From Loxodes magnus (taxonomy: Eukaryota; Ciliophora; Karyorelictea; Loxodida; Loxodidae), in contig CAMPDV010000375.1 in NCBI GenBank assembly GCA_946699065.1, positions 1 through 64,000 of the forward strand: a stretch of 64,000 nt of DNA. Direction: 5' to 3'. The position numbers and the translations under genes were made by a program. Below, piece by piece: positions 1 through 64,000 of the stretch (position 1 is its first letter; each line of letters begins with the position of its first letter). The notes below the pieces were generated by a model that worked only from the letters and a program-made list of their open reading frames with translations, did not search any database and was not told the DNA's origin.

Positions 1-3000
1 GGTCTTACAGGTACCTGTCTTGACGTCCCATAGTCTCACCGTCTTATCATCACTTCCCGATACGATGAACTCTGAATCACTGGATATAGCCACAGCATAT
101 ACAACACTAGTGTGACCACTCATGGTCTTACAGGTACCTGTCTTGACGTCCCATAGTCTCACCGTCTTATCATCACTTCCCGAAACGATGAACTCTGAAT
201 CACTGGATATAGCCACAGCATATACATAACTAGTGTGACCACTCATGGTCTTACAGGTACCTGTCTTGACGTCCCATAGTCTCACCGTATAATCTCTACT
301 TCCCGAAACGATGAACTCTGAATCACTGGATATAGCCACAGCATATACATAAAAAGTATGACCACTCATGGTCTTACAGGTACCTGTCTTGACGTCCCAT
401 AGTCTCACCGTCTTATCATCACTTCCCGATACGATGAACTCTGAATCACTGGATATAGCCACAGCATATACAGAACTAGTGTGACCACTCATGGTCTTAC
501 AGGTACCTGTCTTGACGTTCCATAGTCTCACCGTCTAATCTGCACTTCCCGATACGATGAACTCTGAATCACTGGATATAGCCACAGATCATACATGACT
601 AGTGTGACCACTCATGGTCTTACAGGTACCTGTCTTGACGTCCCATAGTCTCACCGTATAATCTGCACTTCCCGATAAGATGAACTCTGAATCACTGGAT
701 ATAGCCACAGATCATACATAACTAGTGTGACCACTCATGGTCTTACAGGTACCTGTCTTGACATCCCATAGTCTCACCGTCTTATCATCACTTCCCGATA
801 CGATGAACTCTGAATCACTGGATATAGCCACAGATCATACATGACTAGTGTGACCACTCATGGTCTTACAGGTACCTGTCTTGACGTCCCATAGTCTCAC
901 CGTATAATCTCTACTTCCCGATACGATGAACTCTGAATCACTGGATATAGCCACAGATCATACATGACTAGTGTGACCACTCATGGTCTTACAGGTACCT
1001 GTCTTGACGTCCCATAGTCTCACCGTCTTATCTGCACTTCCCGATAAGATGAACTCTGAATCACTGGATATAGCCACAGATCATACATAACTAGTGTGAC
1101 CACTCATGGTCTTACAGGTACCTGTCTTGACATCCCATAGTCTCACCGTCTTATCATCACTTCCCGATACGATGAACTCTGAATCACTGGATATAGCCAC
1201 AGATCATACATGACTAGTGTGACCACTCATGGTCTTACAGGTACCTGTCTTGACGTCCCATAGTCTCACCGTCTTATCATCACTTCCCGATACGATGAAC
1301 TGAGAATCACTGGATATAGCCACAGCAGATACATAACTAGTGTGACCACTCATGGTCTTACAGGTACCTGTCTTGACGTTCCATAGTCTCACCGTATAAT
1401 CTGCACTTCCCGAAACGATGAACTCTGAATCACTGGATATAGCCACAGCAGATACATAACTAGTGTGACCACTCATGGTCTTACAGGTACCTGTCTTGAC
1501 GTCCCATAGTCTCACCGTATTATCTGCACTTCCCGAAACGATGAACTCTGAATCACTGGATATAGCCACAGCATATACATAACTAGTGTGACCACTCATG
1601 GTCTTACAGGTACCTGTCTTGACGTCCCATAGTCTCACCGTATAATCTCTACTTCCCGAAACGATGAACTCTGAATCACTGGATATAGCCACAGCATATA
1701 CAGAACTAGTGTGACCACTCATGGTCTTACAGGTACCTGTCTTGACGTCCCATAGTCTCACCGTATAATCATAACTTCCCGATACGATGAACTCTGAATC
1801 ACTGGATATAGCCACAGCAGATACATAACTAGTGTGACCACTCATGGTCTTACAGGTACCTGTCTTGACGTCCCATAGTCTCACCGTATAATCTGCACTT
1901 CCCGATACGATGAACTCTGAATCACTGGATATAGCCACAGCATATACATAACTAGTGTGACCACTCATGGTCTTACAGGTACCTGTCTTGACATCCCATA
2001 GTCTCACCGTCTTATCATCACTTCCCGAAACGATGAACTCTGAATCACTGGATATAGCCACAGCATATACATAAAAAGTATGACCACTCATGGTCTTACA
2101 GGTACCTGTCTTGACGTCCCATAGTCTCACCGTCTTATCATCACTTCCCGATACGATGAACTCTGAATCACTGGATATAGCCACAGCAGATACATAACTA
2201 GTGTGACCACTCATGGTCTTACAGGTACCTGTCTTGACGTCCCATAGTCTCACCGTATAATCTCTACTTCCCGAAACGATGAACTCTGAATCACTGGATA
2301 TAGCCACAGCATATACAGAACTAGTGTGACCACTCATGGTCTTACAGGTACCTGTCTTGACGTCCCATAGTCTCACCGTATAATCTGCACTTCCCGAAAC
2401 GATGAACTCTGAATCACTGGATATAGCCACAGCATATACATAACTAGTGTGACCACTCATGGTCTTACAGGTACCTGTCTTGACGTCCCATAGTCTCACC
2501 GTCTTATCATCACTTCCCGATACGATGAACTCTGAATCACTGGATATAGCCACAGATCATACATGACTAGTGTGACCACTCATGGTCTTACAGGTACCTG
2601 TCTTGACGTCCCATAGTCTCACCGTATTATCTCTACTTCCCGAAACGATGAACTCTGAATCACTGGATATAGCCACAGCATATACAGAACTAGTGTGACC
2701 ACTCATGGTCTTACAGGTACCTGTCTTGACGTTCCATAGTCTCACCGTCTAATCTGCACTTCCCGATACGATGAACTCTGAATCACTGGATATAGCCACA
2801 GATCATACATGACTAGTGTGACCACTCATGGTCTTACAGGTACCTGTCTTGACGTCCCATAGTCTCACCGTCTAATCTGCACTTCCCGAAACGATGAACT
2901 CTGAATCACTGGATATAGCCACAGATCATACATAACTAGTGTGACCACTCATGGTCTTACAGGTACCTGTCTTGACGTCCCATAGTCTCACCGTATAATC

Positions 3001-64000: not shown

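Follow-up and report, generated by a model that had tools for sequence, protein, structure and literature searches.

The 64,000-base stretch of DNA analysed here (the window) is filled by a single tandem array of a 123-bp unit that spells, on the minus strand, the 41 residues of one WD40 repeat, and the reading frame that runs through this array is interrupted by 191 in-frame stops. The measurements presented below make it probable that the window holds a coding WD40 array that was amplified and homogenised, that stop-bearing variants of the unit were copied along with the others, and that the array is not translated through now.

Array anatomy and in-frame stops

TRF reports one array across the window (period 123, 520.3 copies, 95% matches, 0% indels), made up of 520 whole units and a further 40 bases (Table 1). 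Both ends of the array lie outside the window, and the array is longer than 64 kb. No indel was found across the 520 units, and unit-to-unit identity stays at 95-96% for all lags from 1 to 40 units. The minus-strand WD40 frame contains 191 stops, versus 1,064 to 2,166 in each of the other five frames. The longest stop-free run within it matches the Pfam WD40 profile PF00400 over 13 stretches (E = 5e-143). The window is repeat throughout, and its 64,000 bases contain no tRNA; being array only, it also shows no NACHT/NB-ARC or effector domain.

Table 1. Positions of the array and of the features within it that are discussed in the text.
Feature	Position	Strand	Basis or detail
123-bp (41-codon) WD40 tandem array, uninterrupted	1..64000	-	TRF, units cut in register, Pfam
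Longest stop-free run, 554 aa, about 13 repeats	60613..62277	-	Only listed ORF of at least 500 aa
Seven consecutive stop-free units, predicted 7-bladed WD40 beta-propeller-like fold	61378..62238	-	AlphaFold2 and Foldseek
First copy of the 24-unit block, 2,952 bp, containing stops	32719..35670	-	Unit-by-unit identical to 29398-32349
24-unit block, second copy, stops at identical places	29398..32349	-	Unit-by-unit comparison
16-unit block	57442..59409	-	Perfect duplicate at 55228-57195
Example of a double-stop unit	493..615	-	TGA codon 9 at 589-591, TAG codon 27 at 535-537; from sequence

Five AlphaFold2 models were predicted from the single sequence of seven stop-free units. The best model has a mean pLDDT of 77.5, a pTM of 0.79 and 27 strands; the second has a mean pLDDT of 69.2, and the other three fall below 43. 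Foldseek aligns the best model with 7bie (query TM-score 0.91) and 7big (0.90), both of which are propellers described as 7-bladed. Among solved chains the best match by sequence is 2ymu, a highly repetitive WD40 propeller (E = 2.3e-151). The units are thus WD40 repeats by their Pfam profile, and seven of them would adopt a beta-propeller according to the predicted fold.

The stops comprise 94 TGA codons, all at codon 9, and 97 TAG codons, all at codon 27, and TAA is absent from the WD40 frame in all 520 units. The count given by the original prediction, of about 191 stops at two of 41 codons with TGA and TAG and without TAA, is therefore confirmed. Both positions are hypervariable: codon 9 is TAT in 300 units, TCT in 125, TGA in 94 and TGT in 1, and codon 27 is TAT in 295, AAG in 98, TAG in 97 and AAT in 30. 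At least one stop occurs in 174 of the 520 units, and 17 units carry both, versus 17.5 expected under independence. The longest stop-free stretch contains 13 whole units, versus a mean of 13.5 when the order of the units is shuffled, and long open runs are therefore not favoured. Taken in minus-strand order, the two stops run in opposite gradients, with 88 of the 97 TAG codons in the first 360 units and 47 of the 94 TGA codons in the last 160. The original prediction further held that random decay would also have hit Trp32, Cys39, Gly23 and Glu18, among other residues one step from a stop, and noted no stops there; decay is present at these positions as missense. Trp32 to Cys, Gly23 to Ala, Cys39 to Tyr, Ala12 to Asp and Glu18 to Gln each occur in a single copy, and His4 to Leu occurs in two.

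Probable exchange between units and the origin of the stop variants

The array contains six tracts, each 7-24 units long, that are duplicated perfectly, with scores of 21-72 versus best scores of 6-9 in five shuffles, and the two longest tracts repeat their stops at matching places. Perfect duplications span 29398-35670 (24 units, lag 27), 55228-59409 (16 units, lag 18), 1477-8118 (11 units, lag 43) and 36901-39606 (9 units, lag 13). The complete lack of differences between duplicate blocks points to very recent exchange or to a duplication in the assembly. Linkage between variable codons, expressed as mean Cramer's V, is 0.43 below 10 bases, 0.20 at 10-40 bases, 0.18 at 40-90 bases and 0.12 beyond 90 bases, and is uneven among single pairs, which reach up to 0.35 at 40-90 bases. 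This pattern is consistent with exchange of short tracts as well as of whole blocks.

The two stop variants differ in how visible their origins are. The four codons seen at codon 27 (TAT, AAG, TAG and AAT) are the full two-by-two set generated by two substitutions, and 66 of the 97 TAG copies differ from a non-TAG unit by one substitution, given as T to G at base 81. The nearest non-TAG unit is two substitutions away in 21 of the remaining copies, three in 9 and four in 1. All 94 TGA copies have TCT as codon 10, where the other 426 units all carry GCT. The TGA-TCT pair lies 3-5 substitutions from every non-TGA unit with no intermediate in the array, and a simple nonsense origin is therefore not visible there. 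TGA-TCT may be an old block, which perhaps once read Trp-Ser or Arg-Ser. TAG is found on only two backgrounds at codon 25, GCA (64) or AGA (33), and TGA on three at codon 7, so that each stop may have had more than one origin or may have been transferred by recombination. The sequence context is TGATCTG in 94 of 94 TGA copies and TAGACGG in 96 of 97 TAG copies. By reading, GTATATGCTGTG and GTATGATCTGTG (589-591, and every TGA-TCT unit) differ by one inserted G and one deleted G, and this difference may reflect a frame-keeping pair of a one-base insertion and a one-base deletion instead of three substitutions.

The array contains 45 distinct nucleotide variants at 37 sites. When each base change is scored mechanically against the majority codon, 2 variants make a stop, versus 1.5-2.1 expected by chance, a range that follows from the assumed transition bias; this scoring counts TAT to TAA as the codon 9 stop, and the actual codon, TGA, is two changes from TAT. 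For the 24 variants outside the hypervariable codons the expectation is 0.7-0.9 stops, versus 0 seen (P = 0.42-0.49), so that stop-free codons such as Trp32, Lys35 and Lys40 are of little informative value. Because the 191 copies are not independent, the number that counts is two stop variants among 45, which is at the level of chance.

Neutral simulations of exchange and mutation were run with arbitrary settings and with no hypervariable sites. A first set of 150 runs gave a median of 55.5 variants, versus 45 observed; 31 runs reached 80 stops, 5 with stops at no more than two codons and 6 without TAA. In a second set of 1,200 runs, with the same settings and other seeds, 251 reached 80 stops (69 at no more than two codons, 89 without TAA, 46 both). 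Arrays with 150-250 stops arose in 76 of these 1,200 runs: 18 had their stops at no more than two codons, 23 lacked TAA and 12 combined both features, while at least one kind of stop was missing in 49 and at least three stop codon positions were present in 58. Compared with these simulations, the array therefore confines its stops to rather few codons, though not to a rare degree. Under a reassigned code the stop codons would be expected to be more restricted than chance variation makes them, and they are not; the missing stops at other codons and the missing TAA carry little information.

The original prediction had proposed two explanations for the confinement, namely sense use of TGA and TAG with TAA as the only terminator, or the spread of two founder variants. 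The latter fits the measurements, including the block duplications that carry stops, the stop gradients, the two-by-two set at codon 27 and the chance-level number of stop variants. The former had been argued from the confinement itself and is not supported, given the probability obtained outside the hypervariable codons and the 23 of 76 simulated arrays that lacked TAA. In an array homogenised in this way, the 191 stops may represent as few as two founder events.

Probable traces of past coding and related WD40 arrays

We infer that the array was formerly coding because its frame is intact, its WD40 core is conserved and its variation is restricted to a few codons. The hypervariable codons are 6-10, 25 and 27, and among the codons observed at any one of them no two are synonymous. 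Synonymous variants account for 1 of 21 in these seven codons (mechanical scoring; P of one or fewer 0.016-0.051, descriptive only) and for 11 of 24 outside them, versus 23-26% expected (P = 0.011-0.030), statistics that inherit the choice of the seven codons after the variation had been seen. For a neutral array, zero indels would have P = 0.01-0.11 at an assumed 5-10 indels per 100 substitutions, and less if indels were more frequent. Together, the zero indels and the synonymous excess suggest that the frame has mattered, and perhaps still does. The correspondence with the diversifying positions of HNWD repeats described below would also fit a coding past.

A scan of genome_contigs recovered distant relatives, in the form of WD40 arrays at nine prokaryote loci. 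Six are cyanobacterial, some of which we take to be so from the genus name, and Poribacteria, Dependentiae and Verrucomicrobiota contribute one each. These arrays share 27-45% identity with the window array in the best segment, and 5 to 26 repeats were parsed per locus within the fetched stretch. Arrays with a WDVKTGTC-type pattern also occur on the Poribacteria, Dependentiae and Verrucomicrobiota MAG contigs (L004, L008 and L009). Phages and plasmids gave no match in a distant blastn search with 4,000 of the 64,000 bases, and viral_contigs gave none to a peptide pattern or a 23-base pattern. In the literature, judged from titles and the starts of abstracts, we recognised no comparable WD40 satellite-like array.

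As described in the available portions of two reports, the HNWD/NWD genes of Podospora anserina (het-d, het-e and het-r) contain near-identical WD40 repeats of 42 aa, or 126 bp (PMC12222747; PMC4986451). The high-internal-conservation WD40 domains of fungal NLRs share with the window array their concerted evolution and their variability at few surface codons, and the units of the array are likewise near-identical WD40 repeats under concerted evolution. According to the same portions, reactive alleles carry 10-12 repeats, and fungal NLRs have a maximum of 21 WD repeats (PMC12222747; PMC4986451). Unlike these domains, the window array has more than 520 units, each of 41 aa, with stops in a third of them, and under the standard code its 191 stops leave no open reading frame through the repeats. 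By analogy, the layout of the array resembles the ligand-facing sites of the high-internal-conservation WD40 sensors of fungal NLRs.

Alternative readings and significance

Several other readings of the array were weighed. The array could be a silent reservoir from which gene conversion carries repeat variants into an expressed WD40 receptor gene; stops would then be tolerated while the frame and core were kept. We consider such a donor role improbable, because an acceptor would frequently be disrupted by a donor in which 174 of 520 units carry stops, and the window is all array, with neither an acceptor gene nor an array boundary in view. The concentration of variation at a few codons, with no two synonymous codons observed at any one of the hypervariable positions, is consistent with this role, as is linkage that is strong at short range and weak at long range, which is what short exchanged tracts would give. 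A comparison with the diversifying positions of HNWD (10, 11, 12, 14, 30, 32 and 39, as given in the portion of the source at hand; PMC12222747) points in the same direction: five of these seven correspond to codons that vary in the array (6, 7, 9, 25 and 27) at the best of 41 offsets, the next best giving 4, where the register comes from the offset fit instead of an alignment, the variable codons were picked post hoc, and codon 33 (AAC in 88 of 520 units), which is outside the hypervariable set, was counted as variable.

A slightly less probable reading is that TGA specifies Trp and TAG specifies Gln (or other residues) with TAA as the sole stop, under which the array would be open over more than 21,000 residues. 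The intact frame, the zero indels and the synonymous excess are consistent with such a code, and each TGA has a Ser codon directly after it. In addition, 128 repeats from the nine prokaryote loci were aligned to a profile of the array units with X at stops. Column 9 most often holds Trp (34, with 9 gaps), followed by Arg (25); Trp-Ser is the commonest pair at columns 9-10 (24); and Gln is the commonest residue at column 27 (21), followed by His (16) and Arg (15). An earlier regex parse of 38 relative repeats, with W in 17 at position 9 and Q in 10 at position 27, went in the same direction, and was replaced by the profile parse because it had missed most repeats. However, an identical match would arise if ancestral Trp or Gln codons had mutated to stops, and the match at these two columns is weak because other residues of the array depart from the relatives, as with Tyr27, which is present in 295 of 520 units versus 6 of the 128 relative repeats. 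Codon usage also argues against sense reading: at Trp32, 519 of 520 units have TGG and none has TGA; TGG does not occur at codon 9, nor CAG or CAA at codon 27. Moreover, the stops represent perhaps only two independent events.

To our knowledge, only a few protist lineages have nuclear codes in which both TGA and TAG are sense. Codes that reassign all three stops do exist; in the portions of the sources at hand, they are described for Blastocrithidia, where UAA is the sole terminator, and for Amoebophrya (PMC6394959), and UAG alone is described as reassigned in phyllopharyngean ciliates (PMC11687900). These codes share with the window in-frame TGA, TAG or both in open frames, but as far as these sources go they rest on many genes, whereas the window offers two codons of one homogenised repeat. 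A precedent for error comes from eight yeasts, in which calls of UAG or UGA as Trp were false and came from pseudogenes according to the Codetta authors, in the part of their report at hand (PMC8629427). A more specific form of the sense reading, in which a TAA-only eukaryote (or other organism) would use TGA for Trp and TAG for Gln only at the diversifying surface positions of a WD40 receptor-like frame, is marginally less likely again.

Least credible is a bypass of the stops after transcription by readthrough, RNA editing or splicing, for which the otherwise intact frame is the only support, and which would need near-complete bypass at each of the 174 of 520 stop-bearing units for a full-length product. 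The contexts TGATCTG and TAGACGG match no readthrough motif known to us, and a 60-nt in-frame candidate intron (GTAAG to CAG, by eye) would take out codon 9 together with conserved WD40 residues and leave codon 27 in place.

We therefore return to an amplified and homogenised array as the preferred reading. We hypothesize that a single WD40 repeat was amplified into an array of more than 64 kb, and that expansion and homogenisation would have proceeded by unequal exchange and by conversion of shorter tracts. Two stop-containing unit variants, TGA-TCT at codons 9-10 and TAG at codon 27, would have been copied with the rest and would have drifted to about 18% each. With stop variants at these frequencies, the array would no longer be read as one protein, and the code in use would be the standard one.

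The length and cleanliness of the array are unusual. It far exceeds the WD40 domains of fungal NLRs, which have at most 21 WD repeats in the portion of the source at hand (PMC4986451). The array would represent a diversified coding repeat that behaves like satellite DNA. If the stops were instead sense codons, the array would be a case of rare stop-codon usage and among the longest open frames known. As it stands, it serves as a warning that the hundreds of in-frame stops in one homogenised repeat can mimic a codon reassignment while possibly stemming from two events.
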